Below, piece after piece: positions 16,600 through 26,314 of a DNA stretch of 64,000 bases. Below the pieces are notes generated by a model that ran no database searches, was not told where the DNA came from, and saw nothing but the letters and a program-made list of their open reading frames with translations. Location of the stretch: the NCBI GenBank assembly GCA_030594205.1, contig JAUVFR010000004.1:34689-98688 (forward strand), in the 5' to 3' direction. How positions within the stretch are numbered: position 1 is the stretch's first letter; each line of letters begins with the position of its first letter. Position numbers and translations under genes: made by a program. The DNA comes from Methanobacteriota archaeon (GTDB taxonomy: Archaea; Thermoplasmatota; Thermoplasmata; RBG-16-68-12; JAJISG01).

Positions 16600-17907
16600 C
16601 TACGCGACCCACTTCGTGTCGATGAGGTCGTACAGCTGCTTCCGCGCGTCGGGGAGCGGTATCTTCTCGACGATGGGCGTCAAGAACCCCTCGACGAGCA
16701 TGCGGCGCGCCCTGTCTCGGGGGATACCACGACTCATGAGGTAGAAGACCTGGTCTTCGTCGAGTTGAGCCACCGAAGCCGCGTGCTGGGCTCGCTGGAC
16801 GTCGTTCGTCATGATCTCCAAGCTGGGGATCGCCGTGGACTTCGCCTTCCGGCTAAGGAGCATAGAATATTGCCCCAGGTAGGAGTCGGCGTTTCCCGCT
16901 TCCTCTTCGATGGTGATGACCCCCTTCAAGGCGGAGCGAGAACGCTCCTGCATGACCGCCTTGGAGAGGAGGTCGCTGACCGAATCGCGACCCCGATGGG
17001 TGACGAAGTTCGTGTTGTCGTACCGCTCCTGGCCGGTCCCGTACACGACCTCCACTTGACGAATCCGAGAGCCCTGGCCTACGAGGAGGCAATCGGTCCG
17101 AGACTTCGTTAGGAAACCGCCAAAACTCCCCATGGCCTGATGGAAGCTCCCGTCGCGGCCGACAGTGGCTTGACGGGTAAGGAATGAGACGACGTGGTCG
17201 GAGAACCGCTCGATGGCCACGTGGTCCAGGCGGGCCCCGTCCTCCAGATATACCTCCGTGGCGTTCCCGAAGAGGCTCTGGGCTCCGTTGCCATCGCCGG
17301 ATCCCTCCGGGACGAACTCCTCGATCACCGAGGCCCGGCTCCCGGCCCCGAGATGGATGAGGGTCCGCGTATGCAGCGCAGACGAGGGATCGCCGAAGGA
17401 CCACAGAAGGTGGATGGGGCGCGTGATCTCCAGTCGGGGGGGCACCGAAAGGACAAGGGCCGAGGAGAACAGGGCGCGGCTCATCATTCCGAACTTGTCG
17501 TCCTTGGGGAGGGAATCGGGTCGGGCCAGGAGGCCCTTCGCGGCCTTGGGTCGCTCCTCAAGGAAGCCCGAGGCCTCGTTGAGAAAGAAATCGTGCTCTC
17601 GCAGCTTTTCGGAGATCCGGAGTTCCCGGAGCTGACCCTCGACAACGTGGGCGACCGCCGCCTCTTCTCCTCCGTCGTAGACGGGCGTGACCGCCCCCTC
17701 GAACCCGTGCTTGGCCGGGGCGACCTCCCCGACGTCGACCCCCCGCAAATCCGTGTGGCGAATGAAGAGCGGAAGGGGCTCCACGGGCATGGCACGGAAG
17801 GCATGAAGGGCCTGCGTCCGATCCTTGCGAAGGTAGGCAGGTTCCCCCCGTTCCTTGGAGAGCTCATCCACCCTCTCCTCGGTGGCGCACCCTAGGTCAA
17901 ACTCCAT
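16600..17907 (-). CDS. sufD: Fe-S cluster assembly protein SufD
   Basis: SRALFSSALVLSVPPRLEITRPIHLLW...FLTRQATVGRDGSFHQAMGSFGG...SRGIPRDRARRMLVEGFLTPIVEKIP. Confidence 0.95.
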   Translation of the reverse strand: MEFDLGCATEERVDELSKERGEPAYLRKDRTQALHAFRAMPVEPLPLFIRHTDLRGVDVGEVAPAKHGFEGAVTPVYDGGEEAAVAHVVEGQLRELRISEKLREHDFFLNEASGFLEERPKAAKGLLARPDSLPKDDKFGMMSRALFSSALVLSVPPRLEITRPIHLLWSFGDPSSALHTRTLIHLGAGSRASVIEEFVPEGSGDGNGAQSLFGNATEVYLEDGARLDHVAIERFSDHVVSFLTRQATVGRDGSFHQAMGSFGGFLTKSRTDCLLVGQGSRIRQVEVVYGTGQERYDNTNFVTHRGRDSVSDLLSKAVMQERSRSALKGVITIEEEAGNADSYLGQYSMLLSRKAKSTAIPSLEIMTNDVQRAQHAASVAQLDEDQVFYLMSRGIPRDRARRMLVEGFLTPIVEKIPLPDARKQLYDLIDTKWVA

Positions 17908-17934: not shown

Positions 17935-19335
17935 CTATCCCACGTTGCCCTCGATCTCCATCTTGATGAGGCGGTTGAACTCCACGGCGTACTCCATGGG
18001 CAGCTCCTTGGTGAAGATCTCCAGGAAGCCCAGGACGACCATGTTCATCGCCTCGTTCTCCGTGAGTCCACGTGACATCAGATAGTAGAGGACGTCCTCG
18101 CTGATCTTCCCCACCGTTGCTTCGTGGGTGATCGAGGCGTCCTCCTCCTCGATGTCCATGTAGGGGTAGGTGTCCGATCGGGAGACGGCGTCCAACATGA
18201 GGGCGTCGCAGCGAACGTTGGACTTCACGTTCCTGGCCCCCTTCGCGACGGCGAGGTGGCCCCGGTATGTCACGCGCCCGCCGTTCTGGGAGACGGACTT
18301 GCTCGTGATTCGAGACTGGGTGTCCGATGCGAGGTGAATCGCCTTGGCCCCCGCGTCTTGGTGCATCCCCTTCCCGGCGTAGGCCACGGAGAGAATCTCC
18401 GTCTTGGCCCCCTTCCCTACAAGGTAGACAGAGGGATACTTCATCGTGAGGCGGCTGCCGATGTTGGCGTCCACCCACTCCACCGTGCTGTTCTCGTAGG
18501 CGTAGGCCCGCTTCGTCACTAGGTTGTACACGTTGTCCGACCAGTTCTGCAGGGTCGTGTACCGGACGATCGCCCCCGGCTTTGCGATGACCTCCACCAC
18601 GGCCGCGTGGAGGGAGTTGGTCGTGTAGGTCGGGGCCGTGCACCCCTCGATGTAGTGGAATTGGCAGTCCTCGTCCCCGATGATGAGGGTCCGCTCGAAC
18701 TGGCCCATGTTCTCCGAGTTGATGCGGAAGTATGCCTGCAGGGGTTGCTCCACCTTGACCCCCTTCGGGACGTAGACGAAGCTTCCGCCGCTCCAGACGG
18801 CGGTGTTCAGGGCGGCGAACTTGTTGTCCTCAGGCGGGACCAGGGTCGCGAAGTATTCCTTGAAGATCTCTGGGTACTCCTTCAGCGCTGCGTCCGTGCC
18901 CATGAAGACGACGCCTTGCTCCTCGAGGTGTTTCAGGGTCTTGTGATAGACCACCTCGGAGTCGTACTGGGCCCCCACCCCGGCCAGGAACTTGCGCTCG
19001 GCCTCGGGGATCCCCAGCCGATCGAAGGTTTCCCGGATCTTGTCCGGAACCTCATCCCAGGATCGGCCCTCCTTCTCCGAGGGCTTGAGATAGTAGCGGA
19101 TGTCGTCGAAGTCGATGTCGTCGAGGTCCCCGCCCCAATCAGGCATGACCCGCTCCAGGAAGTGGCTGTACCCCCGGAGGCGCATCTTGAGCATCCACTC
19201 GGGCTCATCCTTGAGCCCGGAAATCTCCCTGACCACGTCCTCGCTGAGGCCCTTGGCGGTCCGATAGACATACTCGATGTCGTCACGGAATCCGTACTTG
19301 TACTCTCGATTCACCGTCTCCTGCTCGAGGACCAT
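17935..19335 (-). CDS. sufB: Fe-S cluster assembly scaffold SufB
   Basis: [45 protein letters not shown]...[50 protein letters not shown]. Confidence 0.98.
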
Positions 19336-19336
19336 A

Positions 19337-20101
19337 CTAGGTCACCTCAACAGTAGCTTCTTCCTTTATCCATTTGTACCCCAGCTCCTCCAGTTTCTGG
19401 GCCAGGTCACTGCCACCCGAGCGGACGATCCTACCGTCCACCATGACGTGCACAAAGTCGGGTGTCACATAGTCGAGGAGACGCTGGTAATGGGTAATCA
19501 GGAGGATGCCCACCTCGGGGCTCGCGAAGTGGTCGATGGCCTCGGCCACGGTCTTCAACGCATCAATGTCCAGGCCCGAGTCGCTCTCGTCGAGGATGGC
19601 GATCCGGGGCGCGAGGACGAGCATCTGGAGAACCTCTGCCCGTTTCTTCTCCCCGCCCGAGAAGCCATCGTTCAGGTACCGGGCCCCAAAGCTGGGGTCC
19701 AGCTTCAAGAGGTTCATTCGCTCGTCCACATAGGCGAAGAACTCGGGGATTTCCATCTCGTTCTCGGGGTGCATCCGCTTGTAGGCCGCGTTCAGGAAGC
19801 TCCCCATCTTGATCCCGGGGACCTCTTGGGGGTACTGGAACCCGAGGAAAAGGCCCAGGCGGGCCCGGTAGTGAGGCAGGAGTCCGAGAATGGACGTTCC
19901 GTCCAAGAGAACGTCGCCCTCGTAGACCTCGTATCGAATGTGGCCCATGAGAACGTGGGAAAGGGTGGATTTGCCGCTGCCGTTGGGCCCCATCAGGGCA
20001 TGGATCTCGCCCGCCCTTACGGTGAGATCCAGGCCGTGAAGGATGGCCTTCCCGTCGACTCCGGCGTGCAGATTCTTGACCTCGAGGGCGGTCATGCCCA
20101 A
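19337..20101 (-). CDS. sufC: Fe-S cluster assembly ATPase SufC (copy 1)
   Basis: [23 protein letters not shown]...[19 protein letters not shown]...[37 protein letters not shown]. Confidence 0.97.
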
Positions 20102-20136: not shown

Positions 20137-20151
20137 AATAACGGCGTTATT
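20137..20151. promoter_or_regulatory. Palindromic operator-like site upstream of sufC copy 1 (AATAACGGCGTTATT)
   Basis: Perfect 7-1-7 palindrome adjoining the TATA element attatataa (20149-20157); near-identical copy at 21061-21075. Confidence 0.75.
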
Positions 20152-20157
20152 ATATAA
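20149..20157. promoter_or_regulatory. TATA-box candidate (attatataa) for sufC (minus) and possibly the regulator (plus)
   Basis: AT-rich TATA element in the divergent intergenic region. Confidence 0.6.
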
Positions 20158-20237
20158 GCGTAACCAGCCCGGCTTTCGCCGGCGATGACGGGTCCGCAAC
20201 TTTTTATCTGCCACGGTCCATATCACACCGTATTGAA

Positions 20238-20964
20238 CGTGGACGACCTGGGCGGGCGCCAATGGTGTGAATACGCTGTGCCGGAGTTTCTCCCGGCGCT
20301 GCGTGCCGGAATCGCATACGACCTCGCCACCGAACACAATCTGAGTCAGCGGGAGATCGCCGAGCGCATGGGACTCACGCAGGCGGCCGTCAGCCATTAC
20401 ATCACGAAACGGCGCGGACGCCGTCCCCAAAGGCGGGACCACCGGCTGCGCAAATACGGGGAACGGCTGGCGGCTCGGATCGCCACCGGACTATCTGGCC
20501 CCAGGCTCACCGCGGCCATCTGCCGAACCTGTACCTCCTATCGAAAGACGGAGGAAGTCGGCCCATGCCCCTGCATCCTCGGCGGGGTCTCGAAACCCAA
20601 ATTCCTTCTCGCCCTCGGGGAACCTGGCGGGTTTCCCAAGCAGCCTTGCGAGACCTTTGTCGTCGAACGACTGTTGCCGTTCGTCCGCTCCGAGATCGCC
20701 AGGCGACTCGTCCCCGAGCGGGGCCAGGTTCGTGTGGCCCCCCTCCTCGGCGTCAGCCAACCCGCCGTGAGCCAGTACATGACCGGGCGGCGCGGGGAGG
20801 ACTCGACTCTCAAGAGCCACCCTGCCGTGAAGGAGCAGCTTGCCGGTTTGGAACGGCGCCTCGCTGAAGGCGTCCCGGACTCGGACCGGAAGCAGGCCCT
20901 GTGCGACGCATGCATCCAAATTCGGTCCCAACTGCTCGAATCCGGCGGCCTCCCCGCGGCATGA
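20238..20964 (+). CDS. Tandem-duplicated HTH (XRE-like) regulator with cysteines in each half; putative Fe-S-responsive suf regulator
   Basis: Two copies of CE..V...LP..R..IA..L...............GlTQ/SQ.AVSqYmT.RRG, each followed by CxxC (ICRTC, LCDAC), plus CPC; ORF caller start is 20185, but a TATA-like tttttatc at about 20203-20210 suggests a start near TTG 20232 or GTG 20238. Confidence 0.8.
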
Positions 20965-21060: not shown

Positions 21061-21075
21061 GATAACGCCGTTATT
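21061..21075. promoter_or_regulatory. Palindromic operator-like site upstream of sufC copy 2 (GATAACGCCGTTATT)
   Basis: Matches the reverse complement of the 20137-20151 site except for one end base; lies between TATA-like ctacttaa (21051-21058) and the ATG at 21099. Confidence 0.75.
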
Positions 21076-21098: not shown

Positions 21099-21842
21099 AT
21101 GCCAATCCAATTGGACATCCTAGACCTCCATGCCGGAATCGAGGAGAAGAAAATCCTTCGAGGCATCAGCCTCTCGGTTCGGCAGGGGGAAATCCACGCC
21201 TTGATGGGGCCGAACGGCAGCGGAAAGTCCACCCTCGCGTACGTCCTACTCGGGCATCCAGGCTACCGCGTCTTCGACGGGCAGGTGCTCCTGGACGGGG
21301 AGGACCTCCTGGCCATGGACACCGACGAGCGCGCCCGCCGCGGGTTGTTCCTGGGCTTCCAATACCCGACGGATCTGCCGGGGGTCAAGATGCGGCGCTT
21401 CCTCCGGGAGTCCTACCGGTCCATCCGGCCCGAGGAACCCGACGGGGAGGCGTTTGATGCGCGGGTGCAGGAGGAGCTTGGGAATCTGGACATCGACGAC
21501 ACCTTCCTCGGCCGGTACGTGAATCAAGGCTTCTCCGGGGGGGAGAAGAAGCGGGCGGAGGTCCTGCAGATGGCCCTGTTCCGGCCTCCCCTGGCCGTCA
21601 TGGACGAAACGGACTCCGGCCTCGATATCGACTCCCTTCAGGTCGTCTCCGACGCCATGAATCGACTCGCCCAGGAGGGCACGGGCATCCTGCTCATCAC
21701 GCACTATCAGCGCATCCTCCGGTACATCGTCCCGCAGGAGGTGCATGTCTTGATCGACGGGCGGATTGCCCGGTCGGGAGGCAAGGGCTTGGCGGCCAAG
21801 CTGGAGAAACGGGGATACGATTGGTTGCGTGAGGAGGCGTAA
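21099..21842 (+). CDS. sufC: Fe-S cluster assembly ATPase SufC (copy 2)
   Basis: [27 protein letters not shown]...[37 protein letters not shown]. Confidence 0.97.
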   Translation: MPIQLDILDLHAGIEEKKILRGISLSVRQGEIHALMGPNGSGKSTLAYVLLGHPGYRVFDGQVLLDGEDLLAMDTDERARRGLFLGFQYPTDLPGVKMRRFLRESYRSIRPEEPDGEAFDARVQEELGNLDIDDTFLGRYVNQGFSGGEKKRAEVLQMALFRPPLAVMDETDSGLDIDSLQVVSDAMNRLAQEGTGILLITHYQRILRYIVPQEVHVLIDGRIARSGGKGLAAKLEKRGYDWLREEA

Positions 21843-21844
21843 CG

Positions 21845-23095
21845 GTGGGGAAGCTCAAGGAGAGCGCATTGGACACACGGGCCATCCGACAGGATTTCCC
21901 AGTCCTGGACCAAGAGGTCCACGGGAAGCGGTTGGTCTACTTGGACAACGCGTCCACATCCCAGAAACCGCGTCCCGTGGTAGAGAAAATGAACGAGTAC
22001 CTCAACCTCTACACGGCCAACGTCCACCGGTCAATCTACCAGCTCGGGGAGCGGGCCACGGAGGCGTACGAGGGCGCACGAGACAAGATCCAGGCGTTCC
22101 TCAACGTCCGGGCCCGGGAGGAAGTCATTTACACCAGCGGGACCACGGAAGCCATCAACGCCGTGGCCTACAGCTGGGGAATGAAGGGAGGCCTTCAGGA
22201 AGGAGACGAGATCGTCTCGACGGTCATGGAACACCACTCCAACACGATTCCCTGGTACTTTCTACAAGACAAGCTCGGCGTGGTCCTCAAGTGGGTCGAC
22301 ATCCACGACGACGGTACGCTCAAGATGGAGGACTACGACGAGCTCATCACCTCGAGAACCAAGCTTGTCACGGTCACCCAATGCTCCAACGTATTGGGGA
22401 CCATCAACCCCGTGGCGGAGATCGCCAAACGGGCTCACGAGGCCGGGGCCCTCTGCCTCGTCGATGCGGCCCAGTCCGCGCCGCACATGCCCGTGGACGC
22501 CCAGGCCATCGACGCCGACTTCCTGGCGGTCTCGGGGCACAAGATGCTGGGACCCACCGGGATTGGCGTGCTCTGTGGGCGGGAAGACATCTTGGAAGAG
22601 ATGGAGCCCTTCATGGGGGGCGGGGAGATGATCCGGGAGGTTCACCTCGGATGGGCCCGGTGGAACGACTTGCCGTGGAAGTTCGAGGCGGGGACCCCCA
22701 ACATCATGGGGGCCATCGGCCTCGGGGCGGCGGTCGACTACCTGGAAGGTCTCGACATGCATCTCGTCCGGGAACACGAGAAGGCCCTCACCGCCTACGC
22801 CCTCGAACGCCTCGCAGGAATCGAGGGTCTCCGCGTTTACGGGCCCACGGACGTGAGCCAGCGGGCCGGCGTCGTCCCCTTCTTGCTCGAGGGTGTCCAC
22901 CCCCACGACATCGCATCCATCCTGGATTCGGAGGGCATCGCGGTGCGGGCAGGCCATCACTGCGCCCAGCCCCTGATGGATCGGCTGGACGTGCCCGCCA
23001 CGACCCGGGCGAGCTTCTACCTGTACAACACGGCGGAAGAGGCCGACCGTCTCGCAGAGGCGCTGAAGCGCGTCAAGGAGGTCTTCCGGCTGTGA
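21845..23095 (+). CDS. sufS: Cysteine desulfurase SufS
   Basis: RQDFPVLDQEVHGKRLVYLDNASTSQKPRPV...SGHKMLGPTGIGVLCGREDILEEMEPFMGGGEMI...VRAGHHCAQPLM. Confidence 0.97.
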   Translation: MGKLKESALDTRAIRQDFPVLDQEVHGKRLVYLDNASTSQKPRPVVEKMNEYLNLYTANVHRSIYQLGERATEAYEGARDKIQAFLNVRAREEVIYTSGTTEAINAVAYSWGMKGGLQEGDEIVSTVMEHHSNTIPWYFLQDKLGVVLKWVDIHDDGTLKMEDYDELITSRTKLVTVTQCSNVLGTINPVAEIAKRAHEAGALCLVDAAQSAPHMPVDAQAIDADFLAVSGHKMLGPTGIGVLCGREDILEEMEPFMGGGEMIREVHLGWARWNDLPWKFEAGTPNIMGAIGLGAAVDYLEGLDMHLVREHEKALTAYALERLAGIEGLRVYGPTDVSQRAGVVPFLLEGVHPHDIASILDSEGIAVRAGHHCAQPLMDRLDVPATTRASFYLYNTAEEADRLAEALKRVKEVFRL

Positions 23096-23478
23096 GCTAC
23101 GAGATGTATCAGGAGGTGATCCTGGACCACTACCAGAACCCCCGAAACAAGGGAGACCTGGATCCCGCGGACATCTGGGCCCGGGAAGACAACCCTCTCT
23201 GCGGGGATGAAATCGCCCTCTATCTCAAGCTCAACGACGCCAGCGTGGTGGAAGACGTGAAGTTCCAGGGCCAGGGATGCGCTATCAGCCAGGCCTCCGC
23301 TTCCATGCTCACGGTCAAACTCAAAGGGAAGACCTTGGAGGAGGTCCTCGCCATCGACGAGGACGCCGTCTTGCAGACCCTTGGCATCCCCATCAGCCAC
23401 GCCCGCCTCACGTGTGCCCTCCTCCCCTTGAGCGCTCTCCGAATCGGGCTCGAGACCTACCAAGAGGACGGCGCCTAG
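23092..23478 (+). CDS. sufU: SufU/NifU-like Fe-S scaffold or sulfurtransferase
   Basis: YQEVILDHYQNPRNKGDL...NPLCGDEIALYLKL...GQGCAISQASASML...LTCALLPL; GTG start overlaps sufS stop (GTGA). Confidence 0.95.
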   Translation: MSYEMYQEVILDHYQNPRNKGDLDPADIWAREDNPLCGDEIALYLKLNDASVVEDVKFQGQGCAISQASASMLTVKLKGKTLEEVLAIDEDAVLQTLGIPISHARLTCALLPLSALRIGLETYQEDGA

Positions 23479-24420: not shown

Positions 24421-24864
24421 GTGCTGGAGCTCCCCGAGGACCTGCTTGAAGAACTCCGCCGGCACGCGGGAGAGGGGTACCCTGCCGAGGTGTGCGGCCT
24501 ACTGCTGGGCCTCGATGGGGAGATTCGGCGTATCACGGCGACCCGCCGGGCCACGAACCTCCGGGCCGCCACGACGCGCGACCGCTACGAAATCGACCCC
24601 CAGGACATCGTCGACGGGGACCGAGAAGCCCGGGAGGGGAATCTCGTGATCTTGGGCTTCTACCACTCGCACCCCGACCATCCCGCGGCCCCCTCCCGGT
24701 ACGATGCGGAGCGGGCATGGCCATGGTATTCCTACGTCATCCTAGCCGCCACGGCGGAGAGGGCGGAGCAAGCGACCGCGTGGCGCCGCGAGGGGACCGG
24801 GATGGTGGAGGAATCCTTGAGGTTTATTAGTCCTGGGAAAGTAGGAGAGTGTGAGCATGAGTAA
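24421..24864 (+). CDS. JAMM/MPN+ metalloprotease (Mov34/Mec+ family)
   Basis: EVCGLLLG...FYHSHPDHPAAPSRYDAERAWPWYSYVI; GTG start adjoining cysM stop. Confidence 0.93.
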   Translation: MLELPEDLLEELRRHAGEGYPAEVCGLLLGLDGEIRRITATRRATNLRAATTRDRYEIDPQDIVDGDREAREGNLVILGFYHSHPDHPAAPSRYDAERAWPWYSYVILAATAERAEQATAWRREGTGMVEESLRFISPGKVGECEHE

Positions 24865-26314
24865 GCCTCGCGTGACCATTCGCATCCCCACGCCGCTGCG
24901 GCCGTACGTGGACGACCGCGACAGCCTGGACCTAGAGGGGGAGACGGTCCAGGAGCTCCTGGACGGGCTCGTCGATCGATACGGACCCCTGAAGCGGTAC
25001 CTCATGGGAGACGACGGGAAGCTCCGCAACTTCGTGAACGTCTACGTGAACGACCAAGACATCCGGTACCTGGAACAAGAGAACACCGCGGTGGACGAGG
25101 GGGATACCGTCATCATCGTTCCCAGCGTCGCGGGAGGGGCTTTCCCCCACGTCACCCTGGGTCCCCGCCCTCCGGTCCGGGAAGGTCTCACCCAGGAGGA
25201 AATCAAACGGTACAGCCGCCATCTCATCCTACCTGAAGTGGGGTTGGAGGGGCAGGAGAAGCTCCGCCGTTCCAGCGCCCTGATCGTGGGCATGGGGGGT
25301 CTCGGGGCTCCCCTCGGGATGTACCTGACCGCCGCGGGCGTCGGGCGCCTCGGCCTGGTGGACTTCGACGTAGTGGAGGAGAGCAACCTGCAACGCCAGG
25401 TTCTGTTCGACACGAAAGACCTGGCCCGGCCAAAGCTCAGGGCGGCCCAGGACAGGCTGGAGGGGCTCAACCCGGGCGTGCAGGTGGAGACCCACGAGGC
25501 CCGCCTCACCAGCGACAACGCTTTGGATATCCTTACGGACTACGACGTCGTCATCGACGGGACCGACAATTTCCCCACCCGATATCTGGTCAACGACGCC
25601 AGTGTCCTTCTGGGGAAGCCCAACGTCTACGGAAGCATCTTTCGCTTCGAAGGGCAGGTCTCGGTCTTTGACGCCGCCCAAGGCCCTTGCTACCGCTGCC
25701 TCTACCCCGAACCGCCGCCCCCGGGCCTTGTCCCGAGCTGCGCGGAGGGCGGGGTCCTCGGCGTCCTGCCGGGAGTCGTGGGCAGCCTGCAGGCCGTGGA
25801 GGCGCTGAAGGTCCTCCTGGGGAAGGGGGACGCCCTCGTGGGTCGACTCCTCCTCTTCGACGCGATGAAAATGCGCTTCCGCGAGCTGAAGCTGCGGAAG
25901 GACCCGGGCTGTATGGTGTGCGGGGAGGATCCTACCGTGACGGAGCTCATCGACTACGAGGCATTCTGCGGCCTGGGGGAGGAGGACGCCCTGGATAGCG
26001 CGTTCCAGATCGACGTGACGGAGGCCGCCGCAATGATCGAGAAGGGGGATGCGATGCTCCTGGATGTCCGCGAGCCGATGGAGTGGCAGATCGTCCACAT
26101 CGACGGAGCCAAGCTCATGCCCGTGGGCGAGGTCCCTTACAAGGTCGGGGATCTCAGCACGGCAGACAACATCATCGTCCAGTGCCACACCGGAACCCGT
26201 AGCGCCCACATCACCCAGTTTCTCCGCGACCTGGGTTTCCAACGGGTCTGGAACATGGCCGGGGGCATCGACGCATGGGCGGCGCAGGTCGACCCGACCC
26301 TCACTCGATACTGA
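24857..26314 (+). CDS. Fusion: ubiquitin-like sulfur carrier (MoaD/ThiS/CysO-like) + E1-like MoeB/ThiF adenylyltransferase + rhodanese
   Basis: N-terminal FVNVYVNDQDIRYLEQENTAVDEGDTVIIVPSVAGG; IKRYSRHLILPEVGLEGQEKL...VGMGGLGAPLGMYL...IDGTDNFPTRY...CYRCLYPE; C-terminal LLDVREPMEWQIVHI...CHTGTRSA. Confidence 0.95.
   Translation: MSKPRVTIRIPTPLRPYVDDRDSLDLEGETVQELLDGLVDRYGPLKRYLMGDDGKLRNFVNVYVNDQDIRYLEQENTAVDEGDTVIIVPSVAGGAFPHVTLGPRPPVREGLTQEEIKRYSRHLILPEVGLEGQEKLRRSSALIVGMGGLGAPLGMYLTAAGVGRLGLVDFDVVEESNLQRQVLFDTKDLARPKLRAAQDRLEGLNPGVQVETHEARLTSDNALDILTDYDVVIDGTDNFPTRYLVNDASVLLGKPNVYGSIFRFEGQVSVFDAAQGPCYRCLYPEPPPPGLVPSCAEGGVLGVLPGVVGSLQAVEALKVLLGKGDALVGRLLLFDAMKMRFRELKLRKDPGCMVCGEDPTVTELIDYEAFCGLGEEDALDSAFQIDVTEAAAMIEKGDAMLLDVREPMEWQIVHIDGAKLMPVGEVPYKVGDLSTADNIIVQCHTGTRSAHITQFLRDLGFQRVWNMAGGIDAWAAQVDPTLTRY

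Follow-up and report, generated by a model that had tools for sequence, protein, structure and literature searches.

The closest described systems are SufR and IscR, bacterial regulators of Fe-S assembly that themselves hold clusters (PMC8593673). SufR, covered in that review from cyanobacteria and some actinobacteria only, is an autoregulated repressor of the DeoR family (PMC8593673) with cysteines spaced as C-X12-C-X13-C-X14-C. IscR, of the Rrf2 family, controls isc and suf through an Fe-S cluster and palindromic type 2 sites, and is a winged HTH protein with Cys92, Cys98, Cys104 and His107. We found no suf regulator of archaea in the literature, which is weak evidence given that only open-access papers were covered; a paper of 2025 about the SmsB-SmsC scaffold of Thermococcus does not mention a regulator.

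The window analysed here, a stretch of 64,000 nucleotides of archaeal DNA, encodes a protein that, like SufR, is suf-linked and carries cysteines. However, its cysteine spacing does not fit that of SufR, and no DeoR-family Pfam match appears among the matches listed. Likewise, there is no match to the Rrf2 domain among the families listed, and the spacing differs from the three cysteines and one histidine within about 16 residues of that domain. With cysteines in another pattern and neither family among the listed matches, the protein belongs to neither group. By analogy, it probably works like SufR or IscR.

Architecture of the tandem regulator

The regulator gene (20239..20964, plus strand) encodes 241 amino acids from a GTG. 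An alternative ATG at 20185, from which the reading frame is open to the stop at 20964, would give 259 amino acids, but the GTG is the likelier start because a stop closes the frame of the orthologue L044 just upstream of the equivalent GTG. The first-pass annotation had placed the start one base off, at 20238. It had also read the protein as two tandem modules in one chain, each with a leading CE, an HTH and a trailing CxxC, with a CPC between them, and this description holds. The halves are homologous, with 35% identity over 100 columns (E = 2e-12); their Smith-Waterman score of 110 was reached by 0/2000 shuffles, whose mean was 27.6 and maximum 58. The first module (residues 7-102; 20257..20544, plus strand) has its CE at Cys10 and its CxxC at Cys95/98, and the second (residues 134-229; 20638..20925, plus strand) has its CE at Cys137 and its CxxC at Cys222/225, with the HTH between the two motifs in each. 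The linker CPC (20566..20574, plus strand) comprises Cys110 and Cys112 and is CFC in the orthologue. All eight cysteines (10, 95, 98, 110, 112, 137, 222 and 225 in the 241-residue numbering) are kept in an orthologue that is 55% identical, which disposes of the earlier concern that they might not be conserved.

The HTH is of the XRE or Cro-C1 type: Pfam HTH_3 (PF01381) matches the chain in two stretches with 35.6 bits against a cut-off of 23, and each half is matched by models of the HTH_3 type. Taken by itself, the second half reaches 12.3 bits against HTH_3, below the cut-off, yet it is predicted as an HTH. An AlphaFold2 model of the tandem chain, made with five tandem sequences as input (pLDDT 78, pTM 0.76), places HTH helices at residues 37-44 and 48-56 of the first half and at 163-170 and 174-182 of the second, the predicted recognition helices being 48-56 and 174-182. 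The second module folded alone, with 36 module sequences as input, gave a pLDDT of 88 and a pTM of 0.81. Structure prediction thus shows HTH helices in the half where their absence would have counted against the two-module reading. A full-length alignment with single-module proteins, in which MAFFT split these across both modules, was left unused for folding. Foldseek searches of the PDB with the tandem protein and with one module returned nothing at E <= 0.001, the weak matches being unrelated or XRE-type, and PDB sequence searches gave generic HTHs only. Searches of NCBIfam and Pfam turned up no family dedicated to the module, and the open-access literature yielded no papers on COG2522. The module may resemble the DNA-binding part of archaeal ThiR.

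The palindrome at suf promoters

The regulator gene lies between a divergent sufC-sufB-sufD operon and a sufC-sufS-sufU operon. On the minus strand are sufC1 (19337..20101, with ATG 20095 as the likely start), sufB (17935..19335) and a sufD-like gene (16600..17907). On the plus strand, 3′ of the regulator, are sufC2 (21099..21842), a gene for a sufS-like cysteine desulfurase (21845..23095), one for a sufU/iscU-like scaffold (23104..23478) and cysM, followed by genes for a JAMM-type protein and a MoaD-ThiF-rhodanese fusion (24421-26314); the names sufD, JAMM and MoaD-ThiF were read from the sequence. Each of the divergent operons has a sufC gene of its own, and both promoters contain the palindrome described below. 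Genome G009 has the same arrangement plus two extra ORFs between the regulator and sufC2 (L044 3039-3524 and 3595-4068), which are related to each other and look ferritin-like.

Two copies of ATAAC-N3-GTTAT, 924 bp apart, flank the regulator: AATAACGGCGTTATT (20137..20151) in the divergent sufC1/regulator promoter, where it overlaps TTATATAA (20150-20157), and GATAACGCCGTTATT (21061..21075) upstream of sufC2. The window has 4 strand matches to this palindrome where 0.10 would be expected, and these two copies are the only exact ones in the 1.54-Mb genome. The first-pass annotation had supposed that the chain reads one palindrome, and a palindrome fitting this expectation both flanks the gene and recurs with its single-module relatives. 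Neither the flanking palindromes nor the suf neighbours appeared in that annotation; the modules, cysteines, HTH and palindrome it proposed have stood, whereas the suf target genes had been missed.

Across the order, the exact palindrome lies upstream of the operon in 18 sufB-type loci and, with one mismatch, in a 19th (G009), while 19 palindromes with permuted half-sites gave 0 matches at the same 19 loci. Eleven other sufB-type loci fetched in the order are without it; these look like second copies of sufB-like genes farther along a locus, or gene fragments at contig ends. In other families of the class, 0 of 27 suf loci have the palindrome. Genomes G009, G003 and G014 contain one exact copy each, all at suf, and G002 contains three, one at the suf promoter. 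Further sites lie at a rhodanese-like gene in G012 and at an OsmC-like gene in G005 and G008, and some exact or near sites lie at genes with no known link. As judged from the sites themselves, the palindrome is strongly restricted to suf and sulfur genes.

Several individual sites are recorded here as observations. In the window's genome, a SufT/MIP18-like gene is a likely third target: its start codon is overlapped by ATTACGGCGTTATG (L055 3848-3860, G000:C39:40847), which has one mismatch. Another one-mismatch site of that genome (G000:C14:65974), before an M50-protease-like gene, was not accepted as a target. The MoaD/ThiF-like gene of G002 that is homologous to that of the window has its own exact palindrome (L142 5796). 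In family f4, for which no sufB turned up, an OsmC-like gene has ATAACGGTGTTATG across its start (L146 1052-1064, L147 5443-5455).

The same genome also encodes a single-module paralogue (G000:C57, QPYE type), which may share the operator with the tandem protein. It could even be the suf regulator throughout the order and the true owner of the palindrome, leaving the tandem protein as a competitor, a modulator or a regulator of other targets. In f5 genomes, no family member other than this paralogue type was found, the suf operons carry the same palindrome, and the paralogue promoters have an imperfect copy of it. In family f1, however, it is the tandem gene that has the palindrome in its promoter and is flanked by it, while the paralogue promoters have none, and in the Nanobdellota it goes with the cysteine-type members of the family; we consider this assignment unlikely. 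We infer instead that the tandem protein binds the palindrome.

How many chains would occupy a site is a related question. Two operators flank the tandem gene and the predicted structure is of one chain without DNA, so two chains might sit on one palindrome, or one chain might bridge both palindromes across the 924 bp, rather than act as a single-chain dimer. Against this, the palindrome has two half-sites only and is of the same size as the site of the single-module relatives, and the model is one compact chain with two HTHs; arrangements of this kind seem rather improbable, if somewhat less so than ownership by the paralogue. That one chain would cover one palindrome is consistent with the two HTHs, the pTM of 0.76 and the two half-sites.

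The module family and its tandem forms

The module recurs in archaea as a protein of roughly 105-150 amino acids; among 36 aligned modules the CxxC is invariant and the CE is present in over 90%. The single-module relatives (e.g. L007, L016-L025 and L237-L241) have the same module with CE and CxxC, and the suf-linked, cysteine-type cases have the same ATAAC-N3-GTTAT as the window; they differ in having one module per chain, presumably as homodimers, and in lacking the CPC linker. The window protein shares both features of this uncurated group, having CE, HTH and CxxC in each module as well as suf linkage with the palindrome.

The association is also found in the Nanobdellota. In the genome of L007, sufC-sufB comes after a single-module member, and AATATAACACCGTTATATT lies upstream. 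This genome contains three exact palindromes, against none for the control, and one of the three is located 42 bp ahead of a sufS-like gene. A single-module member is near sufB in 24/30 Nanobdellota loci. Cysteine-type members by suf have the exact palindrome upstream in 7/7 cases. Members without the leading Cys have TTAAC-N4-GTTAA, a second operator spacing, just upstream in 15/17 cases (L242-L262), and permuted half-sites gave 0 matches. The module family is thus connected with suf, and with TAAC...GTTA half-sites, by evidence that does not depend on the window. As a separate observation, exact palindromes number 10 in a Nanohaloarchaea genome (L227, G607:C40), against 1 for the control, and some of them are close to an Orc1/Cdc6-like gene; a palindrome pair lies near an Orc1/Cdc6-like gene in L235 (G606:C1).

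Five genomes account for the complete double forms among the 116 family ORFs of the gathered loci: G000 (the window), G009, G002, G576 and G535. No other clear tandem appeared among the matches listed from 400 genomes of the class (197 with a match) and 293 of the phylum (124), most of the genomes compared being fragmented assemblies. The G002 protein has eight cysteines in CE, CxxC and CxC motifs, though with the CxC placed after the second module; the recognition helix of that module is changed, its gene is located away from suf, and, the branches in the tree being long, it may or may not share its fusion with G000 and G009. The G576 and G535 tandems (L155 8057-8797, L156 3329-4063), from another class of the phylum, resemble the window protein in having two modules per chain with a CxxC in each, but they derive from a separate duplication and adjoin secreted rhodanese-like proteins rather than suf, and the second module of G535, unlike that of the window protein, is without the leading Cys. 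Their four modules form one clade of their own (98/99), and the tandem therefore arose at least twice. The earlier statement that relatives are usually single-module is generally right, but it is not absolute, as this separately derived tandem in another class illustrates.

The leading Cys and the CxxC tend to occur together (75 members with both, 42 with neither), but after correction for the tree this comes down to one supported independent contrast, which is not significant, and so the co-occurrence is suggestive only. CxxC pairs are common zinc ligands, and they would fit a structural zinc site. The module type without the leading Cys shows a C..H..CxxC pattern, and palindromes are also located at genes for OsmC, rhodanese and sulfur carriers; these features suit a zinc site or a thiol-disulfide switch that responds to zinc, oxidants or sulfur. 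The target genes, however, are Fe-S assembly genes, and the known regulators of such genes in bacteria, SufR and IscR, are cluster-holding proteins (PMC8593673). We regard a non-cluster site as a real though lesser possibility, and each three-cysteine site as probably sensing Fe-S status.

A proposed regulator of iron-sulfur supply

The modules, the conserved cysteines, the suf context, and the operator with its targets are well supported at the level of sequence. We favor, with reasonable though not strong confidence, the reading that the gene encodes an autoregulated suf regulator or repressor in which two fused XRE-type modules act as a single-chain dimer that senses Fe-S or redox status. 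Two copies of an archaeal XRE-type module, normally a single-module protein, would have been fused, each contributing a single HTH and a site of three cysteines (one from CE, two from CxxC), with the linker adding the CPC. The two HTHs of one chain would read the two half-sites of ATAAC-N3-GTTAT, so that one chain would replace a homodimer. In the divergent sufC1-sufB-sufD/regulator promoter the palindrome abuts the TATA element, and it also lies within the sufC2-sufS-sufU promoter; from these positions, binding should obstruct the basal factors, repressing the two operons as well as the regulator's own gene. Because the palindrome abuts TATA elements, the regulator is probably a repressor. 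The cysteines would hold an Fe-S cluster, and its loss when clusters are short would relieve repression.

There is perhaps an even chance of a broader picture, in which a widespread but little-described family of archaeal regulators of Fe-S biogenesis, with an XRE-type HTH and a three-cysteine site, controls suf in this order and in the Nanobdellota, with its subunits fused in some lineages. Its operators would be ATAAC-N3-GTTAT or TTAAC-N4-GTTAA, and in the fused lineages one chain, carrying two sensor sites, would act as a dimer on a single palindrome.

Because the palindrome that flanks the gene recurs at iron-sulfur assembly genes of distant archaea, the gene is probably the cell's regulator of iron-sulfur supply, in a rare fused form. 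The locus thus offers a candidate archaeal suf regulator together with its operator and a small predicted regulon, testable in vitro. In the fused form, the halves can be altered singly, so the need for both sensor sites and for both half-sites could be read out, which a homodimer precludes.
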